Of a DNA stretch of 64,000 nucleotides, positions 12,439 to 28,872 are shown piece by piece. Location: NCBI RefSeq assembly GCF_041435115.1, contig NZ_CP108046.1:434001-498000 (forward strand). Reading direction: 5' to 3'. Every line of letters begins with the position of its first letter. Within the stretch, counting starts at the first letter, position 1. The translations under genes were made by a program, and so were the position numbers. Below the pieces are notes generated by a model. The model saw only the letters and a program-made list of their open reading frames with translations, searched no databases and was not told where the DNA came from. This DNA is from Streptomyces sp. NBC_00289. Its GTDB lineage: Bacteria > Actinomycetota > Actinomycetes > Streptomycetales > Streptomycetaceae.

Positions 12439-14643
12439 TCAGGGGGTGGTCACCAGGATCCCTTCCTCAAGGGCCTGCGAGAGGAGGTCGAGGATGTCGG
12501 CGTGCTCGGCATCAGCAGCGCTCATCACGCCGCTGAGTGTGGTCCGGCCGTCGATTTCGCGTAGGAGGCGTGACCAGGCGGGTGCGTCCTGCTCTCTGAT
12601 CATGTACTCGACGGTCCCGTCGATGGCCAGGTACGAGATGTCGGAGTCTTTGTCGTCGCGTAACAGAAGCACGTTCTCCGCGAACGCGAGGACCGTGTCG
12701 TCGGGGGAATGTCGGCCGAGAGTGACCGACTCGATGTCGGTGCGCTGAGCGGACCACTCGGTTACCGAATAGGCCCGCGGCGCACGAGGTCCGTTTGCAA
12801 TGATCAAATCAGGCGGGTCGGCTGCCATCGTCGCGAGAAGGCCGAGGTTGATCAACCGCAGCACCCGATCGACCATGTGTGAACTGGGTACGTCGCGCAG
12901 TTGCTTCAGCGCGGCGCGCAGGCCATCGGCGTGGAGTAGGTGAGCGGCTGCTGGGGTGGCAAGGGCTTCGTCCAGCAATTCGCCGTTGCTACTCGTAAGC
13001 ATCTGGGCGAATACAGCCCGAGAGTGGCCGCCTCCGTGACCGAGGATGAAGGGGACCTTCGGGCGCTTGCGTATCGGGTCCGGCAGGACGTCCCGCATGG
13101 CGTCGCGGAGGATCCGTTTGTCCCACAGCAGGCGGGCGCGGCGCTGAGGCGGAATGGCTGCGGTCAGCTCGACCAAGCGCGGGTCGAGGAAGGGCACCCG
13201 GGCCTCTATTCCGTGGCCTGAGGCACTGCGGTCTTCGTGCCAACAGTTGTACCGTTCGATGTCGTGGTACTTCATGGTGATGAAAGCGGCGTAGGAATCG
13301 ACAGGGGGAGAGAACGCCGGGAGAGCGGTGTCTCGCAGCAGCGGCTTGTCGGTGGTTTCCCACCACAGGCTCAGTTCCGGAGCGGAGGCCAGAGCGGTAC
13401 GGCGGCTCATCCCGGTCAACTCGGCGATGAAGCCTTCCCAACCGTCGTCGCCCGCCATGTCCGCGGAATACCCGCCGTTGAACTCGTCCGAGCCCTGGCC
13501 GAGCAGCATGACCTTGAGCCCGGGCCGGACGCTTCGGACGTATCGGTACAGCTCGTATTTGTAGAACTGCTCTGGACCGCAGAGTGGTGTCTCCTGCAGC
13601 CAGAGCAGGTTCTTCCACTCTTGTCCGCTGGGGATGCGGTCACGTTCGAACAGCACTTGATGATTGGGCAGGCCCAGTCGGGAGGCATGGTGGTGAGCAT
13701 GTTCGGCGTCGCCGTTCACCGTTGTAGTGCCGTTGAGCACGGTGAATGTATGCATGGCTGGCCCTGCGTCACCGGCCGTGGATGTTGCGAGGGCCGCGAG
13801 GGACGCAGAGTCCACGCCCCCGCTGAGCATCAGCCCGATTTCTACATCGGCCATGAGACAGTCGGTGACGGAGGAGCGGAGGATATCTCCATAGTGGCGG
13901 ACGATCTCTGCGTCGCTCGCCCCTGTCTCGCCATGGCCAGAAGGCGGCGGGAATCGCCAGAAGGCATGCTCTGTGAGGTCTGCGGTCTTAAGATTGAAGT
14001 CGAGGATCGTACCGGGCCGGACCGCATCAACGCCTGTGAACCACGTCTGGGGCCGGCGGGTCACCAACAGTGGCTCCCAGGTCAGGGCGCGGTCGGCCAG
14101 AGCGTCTTCCCAGGCGATTGTGCGTGGGCACCGGGGATCTTGTAGCAGCGCCTTGATTTCCGACCCGTAAACGAGGCGTTCGCGGTCACGGTGGTAGAAC
14201 AGTGGCTTGATTCCGAAGTAGTCCCTCGCCAGGAGGAGTCTGGCGCGGCGTCGATCCCACAGCGTTAGGGCGAACATGCCCCGGACGCCCTCCAAGAATT
14301 CCAGGCCACGGTGGTGGTAGAGATGTAGCAGCACCTCGCAGTCTGACTTGGAACGCCAAGTAGTGTCTTGCGGCAGGCCCTTGGCGAGTTCGCGGTGGTT
14401 GTAGATCTCGCCGTTCACGGTCAGGACGACGGAGCCGTCCTCGCTTACGAAGGGCTGCCGCCCACTGGGCAGATCGACGATGGCCAGGCGGCTGAAGCCC
14501 ATTGCCACAGAGTGGTCGACGATCATGGCATTGTCGTCGGGCCCGCGCAGTGACAGGGTACGCAGCATTCGGCTGAGGGTCTGTTCGGTCTCTTCAGGGA
14601 GTTTTCGGCCACCGAAGGCGGCGTGTCCGGCTATGCCGCACAT
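12439..14643 (-). CDS. asparagine-synthetase-like amidotransferase with PqqD-like C-terminal extension
   Basis: A 734-residue class-B (glutamine-hydrolysing) asparagine synthetase homologue. The start is the ATG at 14643, giving MCGIAG: Cys2 is the glutaminase nucleophile, and RGPDD (33-37) and NGEIYN (77-82) complete the N-terminal amidotransferase domain. The ATP-PPi loop SGGVDSAS is at 274-281, followed by LLGQGSDEFNGGY and GIEARVPFLDPRL. Lasso-peptide cyclases share the synthetase fold but usually lack this glutaminase cysteine, so ammonia-dependent amidation is the simpler guess; asparagine synthesis cannot be excluded. About 90 residues beyond the normal synthetase end (LAIDGTVEYMI, then DILDLLSQALEEGILV) resemble a small PqqD-like winged helix. 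The gene overlaps the upstream MNIO gene by 13 bp and ends the operon. Confidence 0.85.
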   Translation of the reverse strand: MCGIAGHAAFGGRKLPEETEQTLSRMLRTLSLRGPDDNAMIVDHSVAMGFSRLAIVDLPSGRQPFVSEDGSVVLTVNGEIYNHRELAKGLPQDTTWRSKSDCEVLLHLYHHRGLEFLEGVRGMFALTLWDRRRARLLLARDYFGIKPLFYHRDRERLVYGSEIKALLQDPRCPRTIAWEDALADRALTWEPLLVTRRPQTWFTGVDAVRPGTILDFNLKTADLTEHAFWRFPPPSGHGETGASDAEIVRHYGDILRSSVTDCLMADVEIGLMLSGGVDSASLAALATSTAGDAGPAMHTFTVLNGTTTVNGDAEHAHHHASRLGLPNHQVLFERDRIPSGQEWKNLLWLQETPLCGPEQFYKYELYRYVRSVRPGLKVMLLGQGSDEFNGGYSADMAGDDGWEGFIAELTGMSRRTALASAPELSLWWETTDKPLLRDTALPAFSPPVDSYAAFITMKYHDIERYNCWHEDRSASGHGIEARVPFLDPRLVELTAAIPPQRRARLLWDKRILRDAMRDVLPDPIRKRPKVPFILGHGGGHSRAVFAQMLTSSNGELLDEALATPAAAHLLHADGLRAALKQLRDVPSSHMVDRVLRLINLGLLATMAADPPDLIIANGPRAPRAYSVTEWSAQRTDIESVTLGRHSPDDTVLAFAENVLLLRDDKDSDISYLAIDGTVEYMIREQDAPAWSRLLREIDGRTTLSGVMSAADAEHADILDLLSQALEEGILVTTP

Positions 14644-15458
14644 GCAGTCCCCTTGCGGTGCCTGTTCCATATGCTGCGGAGGATGTCCAGCTCTGACATG
14701 ATAACTTCTTCGGTGGCGCTCCTGTTGTCGCGCTCGAGTATCACCGCTGCGGCGCCAGTGGTGCCGAGCGCGAAATCCAGCAGTTGCCATACCTCAGCGT
14801 CCACGTTGCTGTCGTGGGAGTCGACCAGTAGACCCCTGTAGTGGGCGTGGCCGGCGACGTGGAGGTAAGCGATCCTGTCGCCGTCAAGTGAGCGGATGTA
14901 GTCGTATGGATCGAACGAGTTGTTTTTGGCGTCGATGTAGAGATTGTTGACGTCGAGGACCATGCCGCAGTCTGCCGTGTTCAGGACAGTGTTGACGAAC
15001 TGCGTCTCACTCATCGCGTCGCTTGGCTGAGAGAGGAAAGTGACCGGGTTCTCGATGGCGACGTTCATCTGCGCGGCCTCTCGCAGGGCGGCGATATTCC
15101 CGGCGATGCGATCCGCCTCGGCGGCCGTGCGAGTGCAGGAGAAAAAATTGGGCACGGAATATTCACCGACCGATGAATAGCTCAAGTGGTCACTGAGGAG
15201 GACGATGCCGTTGTCCCGGGCCTCTGCCAGGAGTAGGCGCAATTCCGGCTGGATCTGAAAGTCCGCCCGGGCTGGGGAGAGCGTCATGGCGTGAGCGGCC
15301 TTCTGATGCGGCCACCCGAGCACCTCGGTGCCTTCTTTTCCCACTGGAAACGATCCTTCAAAAAGGATCTCCACGCAGTCCACTACTTCCGCGAGGCGTT
15401 GCTGAAAATCCGCGAATTCTGGCCGGTACGAGATGCCGACTCCAGCGAATTCACTCAT
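14631..15458 (-). CDS. DUF692/MNIO family iron-dependent oxidative enzyme (canonical)
   Basis: A 275-residue TIM-barrel protein of the DUF692 family (MbnB/TglH/ChrH), now called multinuclear non-heme iron oxidative enzymes. Known members use two or three iron ions to rework cysteine or other residues in precursor peptides. The family motifs are present: GVGISYRPE (6-14), His56, LLSDHLSY (87-94), AIENP (134-138), LDVNNLY (168-174), LHVAGH (199-204), DSHD (213-216) and LERD (241-244), which supply the His/Asp/Glu metal ligands. It overlaps the MFS gene by 8 bp and the synthetase gene by 13 bp. It is the likely catalytic MNIO of this operon. The substrate is inferred to be the short Cys-ending ORF at 18397-18510. 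Confidence 0.9.
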   Translation of the reverse strand: MSEFAGVGISYRPEFADFQQRLAEVVDCVEILFEGSFPVGKEGTEVLGWPHQKAAHAMTLSPARADFQIQPELRLLLAEARDNGIVLLSDHLSYSSVGEYSVPNFFSCTRTAAEADRIAGNIAALREAAQMNVAIENPVTFLSQPSDAMSETQFVNTVLNTADCGMVLDVNNLYIDAKNNSFDPYDYIRSLDGDRIAYLHVAGHAHYRGLLVDSHDSNVDAEVWQLLDFALGTTGAAAVILERDNRSATEEVIMSELDILRSIWNRHRKGTACAA

Positions 15459-16713
15459 GTCTCATGTTCCTGTTCATCGCTTTGACGAGAATATAGGAGG
15501 CTATTCCCACCGTGGCGACGTAGGCCATGGTGGTCAGTGGTAGCGCGTCCGTTCGCAGCGCGCCGAATATGGTCAACGCAAGCAGTCCCGTGCCGTTGTT
15601 CACTAGGTCGCTGAGCGCGATGACGCGTCCCCGATACTGTGCGGGCACGGTAGGAACGATGGCGGCGAACAGCATGACGTTCAGCGTCGTTCTGGCGACT
15701 ACGACGATGACGAATCCCAGCACGAACACGAGCGGGTCGGAGACACCCGAGATAGCGGCGAAGGCGACGACGGTCGCGGCAATGCATGCGCCTGTCGTCG
15801 CCACCTGACGACGATCGAGGATTCGGCTCTTGCTCAAGGTGAGATTCGCTGCGAACGCCGCTCCGAATCCCACCACCCAAAAAGCCGAGTAATGGATCGT
15901 TTGGGTGGACGGCATGGCTTGCAGCAGTTGCAACGCTACGCCGGTCAGTGGCAGCCCGAGGAGTCCTGCGCTTGCCTGCAGGCCAAGGAGCATGCCCAGT
16001 CTCGGTACAGTCCGGACGAGCCGGACTGCTGCTATAACCTGTGCCAGGATTTGGGTGCGCGGTCCGATTCCGCCGGGTCCGACACTCTCGTTGGCCCCAG
16101 GTGTCCGACCTACTCCGTAAGGCAGGCCTCGCGACGCGCAGCCATACAGCACCGCTGCGGCGACGATGAGGGCGGCGTTGAGTAGCAGAGCACCACCCCC
16201 GGTCAGGCCGTACACGGCCGGCCCTGCGCCGGTGCCGACCAGTTTGGCGGTGGTCAGCCAGGCCCCTCTTGTGGCGGTCCATCGCACCAGCTCGTCTGGC
16301 CCACTGAGGAAGGTGAACCAGACCCGGACCGCGTTTCCGGCGATCGTGGCGGCGATCTGAATGACGACGCTAAGCAAGAGGAACGGCCACACTCGGCCTG
16401 GCGACAACGCGACGTAGATCGTAATCAGCCCTGCGGCGCTGACAGCCGACGTGGCGATAATGGTCTTGTGTAGCGAGAAGCGGTCGGTGACAGCCCCGGC
16501 GACAAGCGTCGTAACGAGGCCGGCGATTGTCTGCACGGTGAGCAGCCAGGTGAGGAACGAGACTTCGCCCGTGAGGGCGACCACGTAGACGGGCAGGCCT
16601 GTCCATGTGAGCGACGTCCCCACTGTCTCGACCGTTCCCGCGACCAATCCCATCCGGACGGCTGCACTATGGGGAGCAACCTGCTCAACGGGTTTCAACG
16701 ACGGCACCGGCAT
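15451..16713 (-). CDS. MFS transporter, probable peptide exporter
   Basis: A 420-residue major facilitator with about 12 hydrophobic segments, such as LTWTGLPVYVVALTGEVSF, LLLSVVIQIAATIAG and PLVFVLGFVIVVVARTTL. The cytoplasmic loop between helices 2 and 3 has GAVTDRFSLHKT, the usual MFS motif-A position. I chose the ATG at 16713, inside the end of the upstream gene; a TTG two codons earlier is possible. Overlaps of 29 bp upstream and 8 bp downstream point to coupled translation. In this context it most simply exports, or gives resistance to, the pathway product; no substrate can be read from the sequence. Confidence 0.8.
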   Translation of the reverse strand: MPVPSLKPVEQVAPHSAAVRMGLVAGTVETVGTSLTWTGLPVYVVALTGEVSFLTWLLTVQTIAGLVTTLVAGAVTDRFSLHKTIIATSAVSAAGLITIYVALSPGRVWPFLLLSVVIQIAATIAGNAVRVWFTFLSGPDELVRWTATRGAWLTTAKLVGTGAGPAVYGLTGGGALLLNAALIVAAAVLYGCASRGLPYGVGRTPGANESVGPGGIGPRTQILAQVIAAVRLVRTVPRLGMLLGLQASAGLLGLPLTGVALQLLQAMPSTQTIHYSAFWVVGFGAAFAANLTLSKSRILDRRQVATTGACIAATVVAFAAISGVSDPLVFVLGFVIVVVARTTLNVMLFAAIVPTVPAQYRGRVIALSDLVNNGTGLLALTIFGALRTDALPLTTMAYVATVGIASYILVKAMNRNMRHE

Positions 16714-17431
16714 CGACAAGCATCCTGATCAGTTCATCGCTCACATCCTCGCCGCCTGCCAGGGCTACCCGGACCTCCGCCGAAGAGCGGGGACGGCGCA
16801 AATAGGCGAGAAGATCCGCCACGCTGCTGTCTACCTCCGATACGGTGACTGTGTTCTCGCCGCTGCTTTGCAGAACGTAGTGCCGGATCCCGTCGGCCTG
16901 ACCGATCGTCCACAACTTGTCCGGCGGCGTCTCTAGAAGCTCGTCCAGGTCGAATCCGCTGCGAAACACAGCGGTGCGGGAAGCCCGCCGAAGGGTCCCC
17001 GGTTCGCCGTCGACGACCGGGGTCGAGCCGATCACTTGCAAAGTCATCTGGTAGCGGGCCAGGGCGACACCAGCACTGCCAGGAAACTCCTCGCCCAGCC
17101 AGGTGCAAAATGCCCGCAAGTCCGCGGAGTCTCGGGAGTCCTTAACCACGACCTGGCGTCTGAAGTTGGCCAGCAGCTGGTCCCATCCATCATCTGACAT
17201 CCGGCCACGCAGCTCGTCGAAGATCAGACCGAAGAAGACGGCACGCGTGCCGTCGACCACGTCCCTGAAGACGGCGAGCTCGTCAGTGTCGAGCAGCTCT
17301 AGCTGTTCCCGATCGGTGGAGTCGAACTGATAGCGGCGGAGTACTCCATGCCTGTCCTGGACAAAATCTTGAAACAGGTGCTCATCAACGATGAGGCCTG
17401 CCACAAATCGCTGATACTCGAATACGCTCAT
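16685..17431 (-). CDS. MNIO partner-like protein with PqqD-like C-terminal region
   Basis: A 248-residue protein I cannot assign to a named family. The first 60 residues (FVAGLIVDEHLFQDFVQDR, then YQFDSTDREQLELL) are helical and resemble the short DP-x-F-type domains seen in several peptide-modification partners. The last 85 residues (RHYVLQSSGENTVTVSEVD, SSVADLLAYLRRPRSSAEV, ELIRMLVDAGAVVE) have the strand and helix pattern of a PqqD-like RiPP recognition element. DUF692 enzymes MbnB, TglH and ChrH each work with such a partner (MbnC, TglI, ChrI). Its ATG overlaps the upstream DUF692 stop by 4 bp. Precursor binding is therefore inferred. Confidence 0.6.
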   Translation of the reverse strand: MSVFEYQRFVAGLIVDEHLFQDFVQDRHGVLRRYQFDSTDREQLELLDTDELAVFRDVVDGTRAVFFGLIFDELRGRMSDDGWDQLLANFRRQVVVKDSRDSADLRAFCTWLGEEFPGSAGVALARYQMTLQVIGSTPVVDGEPGTLRRASRTAVFRSGFDLDELLETPPDKLWTIGQADGIRHYVLQSSGENTVTVSEVDSSVADLLAYLRRPRSSAEVRVALAGGEDVSDELIRMLVDAGAVVETR

Positions 17432-18294
17432 CGGGCAACCCCCCTCTGGCCGATCGTTTCGTGCCCGCCCATCCGGACTGCATAATACGCAGCGTACGCC
17501 TTTCGGTAAAAGCGCAGGAATTCGTCCTTGTCATCACCTTCCCGCCCTTGGACCATCAGTCGATCGGTGGAGGAATTTTCCAGCACATACTTGAGCATTC
17601 TCAAAGAGAGCCCATTAATCCCCGCCCCATATTTGCGTCGCAATACGGGATTCATCGACCCTTCGGGAACGACGGTCACCATTGCGACGTTATCCAGATT
17701 GAAGAGCTTCAAATATTCCTCAGGCTCTTGACCGAGGGTAATTGCACTCACCGCGACGCTCTGCAGATTCAGTTGGAGACCGACCCCTGTTTCTTTAAGT
17801 AAGGTGTCGATAAAGTCGAGCTCACTGTATTGCGCCTTTGACTGAGTGACCAGCATGGCTACGTTTTCCAGCGCGAATGGACATGGCGTGCTATCCCTGA
17901 CGACATTCACGCGATCATACAAATAATGCAGCATCTCATCGCTGTATTCTGGCGGCATATAAAGGTCGAGATTGATGTCGCCGGCACCCGTATAAGAGAG
18001 ATGGTCTGAGTAGTATTCGCAGCCAGTTACCCGTGCAATGCGATCCGTTTTCTCGATCTGAAACCGGTCAAGTTCATTGTCACCACATATGGAGAGCCTC
18101 GTCGAGTGCAATACTATGGGATATCTTCCGGCGAGCTCAGTGATGGCGGATTCGACATCTGCGGTTAGATGAATAGCGTGTGGGTCGAGCTCGATGAAAT
18201 CGAACTTCTCTCCGTCCCGACATACTACCTCGGCGCCCAATTCTGAAGTGAGTGCGATCCCCACCCCCGCGGCATGTGAAATCTGCAAAATCAT
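17428..18294 (-). CDS. divergent DUF692/MNIO paralogue lacking several metal-site motifs
   Basis: A 288-residue DUF692 homologue. I prefer the ATG at 18294 (MILQISHAAGVGIAL), which puts the GVG motif at the family's usual distance from the N-terminus; a GTG at 18345 is possible but lies in a stem-loop. It keeps His63, YYSDHLSY (94-101) and ALEN (141-144). Where the canonical copy has LDVNNLY, LHVAGH and LERD, this one has LQLNLQSV (173-180), VTVVPEGS (206-213) and LMVQGRE (246-252). Several iron ligands are thus missing, and it may be a pseudoenzyme, scaffold or specificity subunit. It is the first enzyme-type gene after the putative precursor. Confidence 0.8.
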   Translation of the reverse strand: MILQISHAAGVGIALTSELGAEVVCRDGEKFDFIELDPHAIHLTADVESAITELAGRYPIVLHSTRLSICGDNELDRFQIEKTDRIARVTGCEYYSDHLSYTGAGDINLDLYMPPEYSDEMLHYLYDRVNVVRDSTPCPFALENVAMLVTQSKAQYSELDFIDTLLKETGVGLQLNLQSVAVSAITLGQEPEEYLKLFNLDNVAMVTVVPEGSMNPVLRRKYGAGINGLSLRMLKYVLENSSTDRLMVQGREGDDKDEFLRFYRKAYAAYYAVRMGGHETIGQRGVAR

Positions 18295-18343
18295 CCCCCT
18301 ATTTAGTGACCCACCCGACAGTAAACAGGATCTATTTCCGACC

Positions 18344-18379
18344 ACCGGGCCTTGAATTGATGTGTGCGCAAGACCCGGT
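18344..18379 (-). promoter_or_regulatory. stem-loop between precursor and first enzyme gene
   Basis: Inverted arms CAAGACCCGGT (18369-18379) and ACCGGGCCTTG (18344-18354) form an 11-bp stem with one G-U pair and a 14-nt loop, 18 bp after the precursor stop. Such hairpins often let a precursor be made in excess of its enzymes, by partial termination or mRNA stabilisation. No U-tract follows, so the mode is inference. Confidence 0.45.
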
Positions 18380-18396
18380 GACCGGCTAATTTACTG

Positions 18397-18510
18397 TCAG
18401 CAGAAACAGGTAAGGACAACCTGAGGCTGCTTCTTCAGAACCTTGACGCGCTTCACAATAACACCATCCCTTGACTTTGCATTTTTGTTGATTGGAGTGA
18501 ATGTACTCAT
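18397..18510 (-). CDS. putative RiPP precursor peptide, C-terminal Cys-Phe-Cys
   Basis: A 37-codon ORF from ATG 18510 to TGA 18397, immediately upstream of the operon and in the same direction. The N-terminus is MSTFTPINKN; the middle is very basic (Lys/Arg at positions 9, 12, 14, 20, 21, 23, 26 and 27) and has alternating Val/Lys; the end is VVLTCFC. The only two cysteines are at 35 and 37, where MNIO enzymes such as TglH act. A leader of about 28-30 residues and a short C-terminal core are inferred. A weak point is the absence of a good Shine-Dalgarno before the ATG; an in-frame GTG at 18531 is an alternative start. The ORF lies in AT-richer DNA than its surroundings. Confidence 0.6.
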   Translation of the reverse strand: MSTFTPINKNAKSRDGVIVKRVKVLKKQPQVVLTCFC

Positions 18511-18606: not shown

Positions 18607-18785
18607 TCCGACCAACTCCCTTACATGGAGGGCAACCTGAGTGACCATCATGAGGATCTGTCAACGATGATCGGAGAAAACGCGGTTGACGGTGTTGTGT
18701 CCAGACTCTCCTTGTTTAAGGCAAGTGTGACGTCCCGTCAGTTTGCCTTTGTACTGAGCTTGTTCAGCGTGGCCACTGAGCTTCT

Positions 18786-19537
18786 TCAGCGTTGCTTCTC
18801 CAGGGTGAGGACGGCCTTGGCGATTGACGTGAGTGTGTTGGGACTGACGCGGGCTTTGCGGAAGATCCGCCAGGCTTTGAGTCGTGCGAAGGCCCGTTCG
18901 ACGGGCGAGCGGAGTCGGGCGTGTGCCCGGTTGACGGCCTTCTCTTTGACGGTGAGCTCACGGTTTCGGTGTCTTTTGACGGGTGTGGCGAACGTTCCGC
19001 CGGCACCCTGGTACGCCTTGTCCGCGAGGGCGGGGATCTTCAGTCGCTCACAGATGGGGCGATGTTGTGGGTGCGGGCGGCTGTGATGTCCGCGGTCCGT
19101 CCGGGCAGGGCCGGCGAGTACCAGACGAGCTCACCGGCCGGGCCGGTGACCGTCTGGATGTTCACGCCGTGCTTGCCGTGCTTGCCTGAATAGTCGTCCT
19201 GGCTGTTGCCCACGCGGTCGCATTCGGCGAGCGTGCCGTCGACGAGGATGTACTCAGGGCGGGCTTGCCGCAGCGCGTGAGTGAGAGAGGGCGCGCGGGC
19301 GGCCAGGTGGGTGATCACGCTGTGTACATGTGCGTGGGCGGTGCTCTCGCTGATCCGGAAGCCGGCGGCGATCTGGGCGAGGGTGTCGTGCTTGCGTAGG
19401 TACACGAGCGTGATGAGGGCCCGCTGAGAGGCCGGCAGTTTGCACCGGCGGTCACCCTCGCGGGTGATGATCAGCATCGTGACCCACTCCACGAGGGCAT
19501 GCGGAAGGTCGAGTGCGGCAGGATAGGTAACCAACAA
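18786..19537 (-). pseudogene. IS5-family DDE transposase, one frameshift
   Basis: From 19537 the minus strand encodes [20 protein letters not shown], the helix-turn-helix segment [30 protein letters not shown] and the GKHGKHGVN strand. The frame breaks near 19050, and the rest (ALADKAYQGAGG, then [20 protein letters not shown]) runs in another frame to 18786. It is related to, but distinct from, the three-copy IS5 type. Confidence 0.8.
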
Positions 19538-26934: not shown

Positions 26935-28872
26935 CGCCGAGTAGCCGAGGGGATTTTCACCCCTCGGCCCTCACAGATCCGTACGTGACGATCTCTCGTC
27001 ATACGGCTCTTGTCGTTCTGGTCACCAGACGCGGGGGGCATGGGTGGTCCAGGCCCAGTGGGCGAAGAACCGGGGTCGCCGTGCGACGGCCTGGTTCCAC
27101 GCCGTTTGGGCTTTCTTCCTGCCCCGCAGCCGTTTGAACTTCTTGCGCATCCACCGCATCAGGTAGGCGTTGACGCGTTCCAGGAGGGGATGGAGGGCCG
27201 ACTGGTAGAAGGCTCCGTAGTACGTCATCCACCCGCGAATGATCGGGTTGATGAACCGTGCGAGGTCTGCTTCGGTCAGGCTGGTGCGGTGGTGCAGCCG
27301 CCAGGACCGCACTTCGGAACTGATCCTGCGCAGGGCTTCCCCGCTGATGGCGGGGAGGAACGACCGGAACATCTGGCCGTCCTTGCGTACCGCGGAGCGG
27401 GTGCGGAAGGTGAATCCCAGGAAGGTGAACTCGGTGTGCTCGTACGAGGCACGCCGGTTGGCATCCTGGCAGTACACGATCCGCGTCTTCTCCGGGTGCA
27501 GTTCAAGCCCTGCCTCGGCCATCCGCTTCTCGATCGCCTTGAGCACGAAGCGTGCCTGGCGTTCGCTGACGCAGTGGACCACCGCGTCGTCCACGTACCG
27601 TTCGAACCCGATGGCGGGGAAGTTCCGCGCCATCCAGGCGTCGAAGGCGTAGTGGAGGAAGAGGTTGGCGAGGACCGGCGAGACCGAGGAGCCCTGGGGC
27701 GTCCCCCGGTCCCGCTCGCGCCGTGTCCCGTCGGGCAGTTGCAGCGGTGCGGCGAGCCAGCGTCGCACGTACAGCAGGACCCAGGACTGGGACGGATTGG
27801 ACGGATCAGTGTGGGCGGCGACCGCCTTGAGTACCAGGTCCCACGGAACGCTGTCGAAGAATGCGCGGATATCCAGGTCGATGACCCAGTCCGCCTTCCA
27901 GCAGCGCTCCCGGCACCGGCCCACAGCATCAATCGCCGACCGCCCAGGACGGTAACCGTAGGAGTCGGGATGAAAGACCGGCTCGGCCTTGGCCTCCAGC
28001 ACCCCGGCAACCACCGTCTGGGCTATACGATCCCCGATCGTGGGCACGCCCAATATCCGGACGCCCTCTTTCTTGGGGATCTCCACCGCACGCACCGGAG
28101 GCGGAAAATAGGTGCCGGAGGAAAGATGATTCCAGATCTTGTATAGATTGTTCTTCAGATCCTTCTCGAATTCTTCCATCGACACCGCATCCACGCCCGC
28201 TGCGCCCTTGTTCGACCTGACTTTCTCGTACGCCTCCCAGACGGACTGCTTGGAAATATTGAACGGCTTGCCTGACGCTTTCACCTCGTTCACACGACTC
28301 CTCCCGGGTAACGTCCGGTTGATCGAATAAACACAGTCACGAACGACCCGGCCCCTTCGCTCCGCCCCCGTTACAGGGGTTTCATCACTACTACGAGCCG
28401 GTCCGCCGGCGTACTTGGCGTCGGTACTCAGTCCCTCACGGCTTCGGACCGCCCGGGACGCTCCCTCTCTCCCCGCTCACCAGCGGAGACGTATCCAAGC
28501 CCGCCTTCTCCTGTTCCGTACGAAGGCCGCAGACCGGGCTCGCGTCGCCTGCATGCCGGACACCGCCTGGCCAATAAACGGGCACCCGCCAGACTCATCC
28601 CGGGACTGCCTTGACACCCCGGTTCTGATGTCGACTCTACTTTTCGACACGTCAGCAGCGATTCGCTTGCGCTCGCCTTCCCGATCCCCACCTGACGTCT
28701 CAATGGACGCCTTTTCCTCATCGTTCACCACGGCAGTCTTCAGCTAGCGCAGCATGAGGTGGTTTAAATTCTCCCCCCGCAGGGTGAATTTGAAGGGCCA
28801 TACCTTCATCCTCCGTACAACATCGCTACAAGAAGAGTTCCTACATGCTTCTTCCTTTCACGTTCAGGACAC
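26935..28872 (-). mobile_element. group II intron 1
   Basis: The minus strand has a 5' end GTGTCCTGAACGTG at 28872, a reverse-transcriptase ORF, and a 3' domain V (GAGCCGTATGACGAGAG, then CGTCACGTACGGATC, at 26966-27010) followed by a domain VI hairpin (26944-26970). A fragment sharing the same 5' end is at 55235-55385, which supports the boundary. The 3' end is placed to within a few bases. 28294-28871 is the structured 5' RNA without other genes. Confidence 0.75.
27022..28293 (-). CDS. ltrA: group II intron reverse transcriptase/maturase
   Basis: A 423-residue protein. RT blocks are visible: SNKGAAGVDAVSMEEFE (RT0/1), VRILGVPTIGDRIAQTVV, YGYRPGRSAIDAV (RT2), IDLDIRAFFDSVPW (RT3), GTPQGSSVSPVLANLFLHY (RT4), the catalytic FERYVDDAVV (RT5), then LHPEKTRIVYC and FTFLGFTFR (RT6/7). 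A maturase X domain (INPIIRGWMTYYGAFYQSA) follows. No endonuclease domain is obvious. The ORF is complete. Confidence 0.9.
   Translation of the reverse strand: MNEVKASGKPFNISKQSVWEAYEKVRSNKGAAGVDAVSMEEFEKDLKNNLYKIWNHLSSGTYFPPPVRAVEIPKKEGVRILGVPTIGDRIAQTVVAGVLEAKAEPVFHPDSYGYRPGRSAIDAVGRCRERCWKADWVIDLDIRAFFDSVPWDLVLKAVAAHTDPSNPSQSWVLLYVRRWLAAPLQLPDGTRRERDRGTPQGSSVSPVLANLFLHYAFDAWMARNFPAIGFERYVDDAVVHCVSERQARFVLKAIEKRMAEAGLELHPEKTRIVYCQDANRRASYEHTEFTFLGFTFRTRSAVRKDGQMFRSFLPAISGEALRRISSEVRSWRLHHRTSLTEADLARFINPIIRGWMTYYGAFYQSALHPLLERVNAYLMRWMRKKFKRLRGRKKAQTAWNQAVARRPRFFAHWAWTTHAPRVW

Follow-up and report, generated by a model that had tools for sequence, protein, structure and literature searches.

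A putative MNIO-type RiPP operon with a non-canonical MNIO and an asparagine synthetase-like enzyme in Streptomyces

The operon and its chromosomal setting

A minus-strand operon spanning 18510 to 12439 of the window (the whole 64-kb stretch of DNA that was analysed) consists of a short ORF followed by five overlapping genes, labelled A, X, I, T, H and C in that order (Table 1). The overlaps measure 4 bp for X/I (17428/17431), 29 bp for I/T (16685/16713), 8 bp for T/H (15451/15458) and 13 bp for H/C (14631/14643), so that the ORF coordinates bear out the six minus-strand ORFs, their order and all four overlap lengths given in the original prediction. No dedicated protease was seen within the operon.

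Table 1. Genes and features of the A-X-I-T-H-C locus, in window coordinates
Feature	Description	Coordinates	Strand	Remarks
A	probable precursor, 19 aa, MKRVKVLKKQPQVVLTCFC	18397..18456, stop included	-	GTG 18456, Shine-Dalgarno AAGGGA, shared LTCFC
Hairpin	between A and X, 17-bp inner and 12-bp outer stem	18315..18400	-	RNA fold
X	MNIO-like, three of nine iron ligands kept, 288 aa	17428..18294	-	
I	probable MNIO partner, helical N-terminal part and RRE-like C-terminal domain, 248 aa	16685..17431	-	
T	predicted MFS exporter, 420 aa	15451..16713	-	MFS_1, E 1.1e-15
H	MNIO, complete set of nine iron ligands, 275 aa	14631..15458	-	PF05114, E 3.2e-53
C	AS-like amidotransferase/synthetase, 734 aa, C-terminal extension of ~130 residues	12439..14643	-	GATase_7, Asn_synthase

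The host genome is 11.0 Mb in size, and the operon stretch occurs in it twice, at 446,000-453,000 and 10,173,218-10,180,218 of a 10,626,179-bp contig, 100% identical across 7001 bases and in opposite orientation; the two copies accordingly look like parts of terminal inverted repeats. The G+C content of A and X (about 50%) falls below that of the remaining operon genes (59-66%) and of the flanks (63-72%), which suggests a recent arrival. The step from about 50% in the A-X part to 59-72% around it, together with the region's wealth of transposase ORFs, might alternatively mark the operon as a partly decayed relic that makes nothing, stranded in a chromosome arm full of repeats and IS elements, but this is very unlikely for six intact frames with tight overlaps, an H protein that keeps every ligand (see below) and two genome copies that agree over their full compared length.

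Many transposase-like ORFs (read from translations) flank the operon between 5000 and 32000 of the window, and a reverse-transcriptase-like ORF lies in its flank at 27022-28293. Short repeats at 18774-19000 recur at at least 40 other places in the arms of the same genome.

Canonical and non-canonical MNIO proteins

Protein H matches the Pfam model PF05114 over profile positions 1-261. Aligned to the references TglH and VcMbnB, and scored against the nine-ligand list given in the accessible text of PMC8888699 and PMC10880893, both H and its Bacillus relative keep nine of nine MNIO iron ligands (H56, H91, E136, D169, N172, H200, D213, H215 and E242 in H). Elsewhere in the same genome a further PF05114 match (L001, G000:C1:2932729-2933520; 260.9 bits) falls in a 798-residue open frame that may encode an MNIO joined to a second domain.

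Protein X matches PF05114 (E 3e-36) only over positions 1-199 of 263 and keeps three of the nine ligands, H63, H98 and E143, which are present in 11/11 aligned X proteins. The same six sites are replaced in all eleven, and by conserved residues (Asn and Ser for Asp and Asn, Gln for Glu, Tyr or Phe for His), so that X is, on these alignments, a conserved non-canonical MNIO. The original prediction had taken both DUF692 proteins for ordinary enzymes, which holds for H and fails for X.

On balance, X is better read as a regulator than as a catalyst, by analogy with PesX of the nitrilobacillin (pes) clusters, which is reported to bind PesI and to lower the activity of PesH (PMC13060819, accessible text). 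Conservation of H63, H98 and E143 and of the replacements alike does not resemble random decay, and the TglH residue matching H63 ligates Fe1 while that matching E143 bridges Fe1 and Fe2; X might therefore be a second catalyst or a substrate-holding protein, its His-His-Glu set perhaps holding a single iron and acting on the second cysteine. We consider this unlikely: known MNIOs are inactivated or impaired when those other ligands are lost, according to the accessible text of PMC8888699 and PMC10880893, and PesX, the only tested analogue, had no activity (PMC13060819).

Partner and transporter

Protein I has no Pfam match. Its predicted structure (model pLDDT 60) is TglI-like with an RRE domain, and TglI and RRE are matched; I is thus a probable TglI-type MNIO partner with a helical N-terminal part and an RRE-like C-terminal domain, as the original prediction of a partner-like protein would have it. 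The transporter assignment likewise stands, T being an MFS_1 protein and predicted exporter.

The precursor and the hairpin that follows it

The first gene had been put forward as a 37-residue, Cys-ending ORF. The ORF exists and carries a conserved motif, but its start at ATG 18510 shows no evident Shine-Dalgarno sequence, while the GTG at 18456 has AAGGGA upstream, and the 19-residue form aligns end to end with a peptide of Bacillus chungangensis; the precursor is therefore probably 19 aa rather than 37 aa long. It is tiny and basic, with the C-terminus VLTCFC. The B. chungangensis ORF, MLKKVKKAAVTKPVALTCFCRKSTTL, has 26 residues and AAGGGG ahead of its start. Each of the two lies directly before X, and LTCFC is common to both, at the exact C-terminus in the window and followed by six residues (RKSTTL) after the last Cys in B. 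chungangensis, so that "Cys-ending" does not serve as a general feature.

Comparing the 400 nt ahead of X between the two species gives a best ungapped score of 46, a value reached by 0/400 dinucleotide shuffles (best 41) and by 0/318 window stretches; three of those stretches reach 44, within two points, and on score alone the alignment gives moderate support. The case for homology is strengthened by the ORF's position immediately ahead of X in each species and by a hairpin between the two genes in both. In the window this hairpin folds at -42.2 kcal/mol (z -4.37, 0/200 shuffles as good); its B. chungangensis analogue has z -3.54. A hairpin between the precursor ORF and the next gene is a common arrangement in RiPP operons, and here it is a possible attenuator or processing stem.

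A second locus and the spread of relatives

Bacillus chungangensis DSM 23837 (locus L010) carries peptide-X-I-T-H in the same order as the window, with identities of 29% (X), 25% (I), 25% (T, likewise MFS) and 35% (H). It shares the LTCFC peptide and the hairpin before X, and differs in having no AS-like gene after H, an S9 peptidase about 0.5 kb downstream, and the residues past the last Cys. We found no name for this A-X-I-T-H cluster in the literature, as far as its accessible text goes. The original prediction of a complete RiPP pathway gains from the conservation of A-X-I-T-H in a second phylum, from canonical H, partner I and exporter T, and from C, whose AS-like family adjoins tiny peptide ORFs, and has to be amended in that X is non-canonical.

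Complete loci with both X and I available for comparison number two, the window and L010. Relatives of both proteins are rare: in a set of 5.77 billion proteins the search, at its given sensitivity, brought up one further relative of I and ten of X, plus P0018; the latter shows canonical ligand motifs by eye and was left out of alignments A3 and A5. A pattern scan of genome contigs gave 20 matches and one true relative (L010). With profile A4, I is found in 1/396 genomes of the window's phylum (its own) and in 1/34 Bacillus-family genomes. With profile A5, 337/394 genomes of the window's family match X at E 0.001, while only its own exceeds 129 bits; the sole weaker match examined for ligands (L018) keeps 9/9, and further X-like proteins may be present among the others. 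PF05114 as such occurs in 24/397 genomes of the Bacillus order. No relatives were found in viral contigs, and plasmids yielded no I relatives and only distant DUF692 matches to X. The original prediction had named widespread homologues with no conserved short Cys-ending ORF upstream as counting against it; this applies in part, in that the sole other complete locus found does have its LTCFC ORF, with six residues after the last Cys.

Also in the Bacillus order, L071:5033-13768 sets MNIO-like and partner-like proteins beside radical-SAM-like, TldD-like and JmjC/cupin-like proteins (by eye).

The synthetase-like enzyme and its family

Both Pfam domains of C fit the original assignment to the AS-like enzymes, as does its passing the general asparagine synthetase model. 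The best solved relative is 7ylz, named a hydroxyamidotransferase. C keeps the Glu and Tyr matching PesC Glu363 and Tyr368 and has Thr and His at the positions aligned to the PesC dyad Asp334/Arg443; without that dyad, nitrile formation cannot be inferred. AS-like enzymes are known to make lactams in RiPPs (PMC13060819, accessible text), and C matches the lasso cyclase model NF033535 weakly, so formation of a ring (lactam or lasso-type), or coupling of a small molecule, could be proposed in place of an amide or nitrile; it is improbable, with C failing that model at 191.3 bits vs a cut-off of 525 and with neither Asp nor Glu in the VLTCFC end of the 19-residue precursor from which a side-chain lactam could form.

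At a threshold of E 1e-100, relatives of C were found in 22 of 362 sampled genomes of the window's genus (its own included), in 22 loci besides the genome's own two, all at E 1e-186 or less and 45-50% identity. Three Streptomyces plasmids carry further members (44-48%). Assignment to this family rests on identity and not on the AS tree (19 rows, from which nine of the 25 C-family members and the genome's own other synthetases, L078 and L079, were left out); the tree does not settle the position of C, and PesC and L009 form long branches in it.

By phmmer, the neighbours of the C homologues at the 22 loci include an AurF relative (20/22), a nucleotidyltransferase (20/22) and PqqD (19/22), and X, I, H and T of the window were never the best query for any ORF there; the three plasmid loci also have AurF-family proteins (Pfam). 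All 25 loci contain an ORF with the motif M[KRQH][KQA]YxKP (written after the peptides were seen), and each of the 28 such ORFs is exactly 22 residues long. In at least 21 loci it precedes the AS-like gene at a distance of up to 400 nt, and in L116 it lies 5 kb upstream. The 64-kb window has no match to the KYxKP motif, and the oxygenase here is of another kind. C therefore appears to come from a family that serves tiny peptides together with a different oxygenase, joined in this operon to an X-I-T-H module, and the operon looks like a mosaic.

The KYxKP clusters themselves (L006-L008 and L115-L136, e.g. L118:8874-8942 on the plus strand), from 21 further genomes in the genus sample and the three plasmids, have the look of a RiPP family not yet described, with a precursor reminiscent of a leader that lacks its core; in the accessible literature we found nothing that joins an AS-like enzyme, AurF, a nucleotidyltransferase, PqqD and a 22-residue peptide. 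Three near-identical 22-residue peptide ORFs stand in a row before the AS-like gene at L135:8721-9013, and L116 has two. A Rahnella plasmid locus (L009:4257-9848) combines a 22-residue ORF, MKKTYAKPRLVQIRRSVSAGGH, with PqqD, a methyltransferase, an MFS protein, a JmjC-type protein and an AS-like gene; it may be a remote variant that relies on a third kind of oxygenase.

A proposed pathway

From the genes and their order, the retention and loss of ligands, the fold of X, the probable fold of I, the conservation of A-X-I-T-H in Bacillus and the family of C, we infer the reactions, the modified residue, the order of steps and the role of X, and predict the product. The RRE-like domain of I would bind the tiny basic precursor ending in VLTCFC, and the MNIO H would oxidise it, the most likely target being one of the CFC cysteines. 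After H/I, C would act on the C-terminal carboxylate with ATP and glutamine, giving an amide, or a nitrile by a second activation. X would bind I and limit H, as PesX does, and T would export the product. As a whole, a RiPP operon in which H/I oxidise CFC, C works on the C-terminus, X restrains H and T exports is the reading we lean towards. LTCFC is terminal where C is present and internal where it is absent, which, over the two loci concerned, fits an enzyme acting on a terminal carboxylate; the low or undetectable similarity to pes proteins, the two changed positions of the PesC dyad, the moderate statistical support for the precursor alignment, the count of two complete loci and the pLDDT of the I model weigh against the outline. 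That the product is a nitrile, rather than an amide or something else, is possible though doubtful.

More speculatively, the operon may represent, with an MNIO, a general RiPP design not yet described, in which the oxygenase is exchangeable (an MNIO in this operon, an AurF-type or JmjC-type enzyme in its relatives). A fixed, tiny precursor of 19-26 residues would first be oxidised, and not until then would an enzyme of one AS-like family convert its C-terminal carboxylate into an amide or nitrile; here that end would be Cys-derived, and X a one-iron or decoy MNIO. We offer this joint proposal tentatively. Amides or nitriles of a terminal cysteine would be novel as metal ligands or as warheads aimed at proteases. 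In any case the operon links tiny peptide ORFs with an AS-like family that is widespread, and provides a second, independent system for asking why a genome would retain a defective MNIO alongside an active one.

Comparison with known systems

The original prediction knew of no described counterpart to this gene set. One exists in the pes clusters, reported in a 2026 preprint (PMC13060819, accessible text), which have all six functions: precursor, pseudo-MNIO, partner, MNIO, AS-like enzyme and transporter, the pseudo-MNIO gene adjoining the partner gene as X adjoins I. The pes pathway puts a nitrile on its peptide, with PesHI oxidation required before PesC acts. The likeness is one of plan. Gene order is A-X-I-T-H-C in the window against X-I-A-A-C-H-O-T-P-P in a pes-type locus (L070, whose precursors end RTDN and RVDN and whose C has the five named PesC residues on the same letters); the precursor ends VLTCFC against GPR(V/T)DN, with the nitrilotide R(V/T)DN not present in A; and the window operon has no HExxH enzyme, no M16 peptidases and, in C, no PesC Asp/Arg dyad. 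Identity to the L070 proteins is 26% for C and 21% for H, and hhalign gives X and I probabilities of 0.5% and 0.1% against their pes-type namesakes (a low-power comparison with single sequences). The peptide is a different one, the proteins are remote relatives or show no relationship in this comparison, and the operon is at most a candidate member of the nitrilotides.

The KYxKP clusters share with the window a tiny peptide ORF and an AS-like enzyme 44-50% identical to C; they differ in having an AurF-type oxygenase for the MNIO, a separate PqqD, a nucleotidyltransferase and an unrelated, Cys-less peptide. TglHI, of the 3-thiaglutamate pathway, resembles the window in pairing an MNIO with a helical-plus-RRE partner and in having a C-terminal Cys as substrate (PMC10880893). 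The Cys of TglA is added post-translationally, whereas the CFC of A is genetically encoded, and the accessible text of that paper reports no AS-like enzyme.

In the open-access literature, as far as its text was accessible, MNIO, asparagine synthetase and RiPP are joined only in PMC13060819 and PMC12710340. The pes authors found orthologues in Bacillus-related genera only, according to the accessible text of the former; the combination of MNIO, pseudo-MNIO and AS-like enzyme occurs in an actinobacterium too. Since its precursor is different and its proteins are distant or undetectably related, the plan is either ancient or has arisen more than once. What is known is the plan of an MNIO RiPP with pseudo-MNIO and AS-like enzyme; what is new is the phylum, the precursor type and the mosaic make-up.
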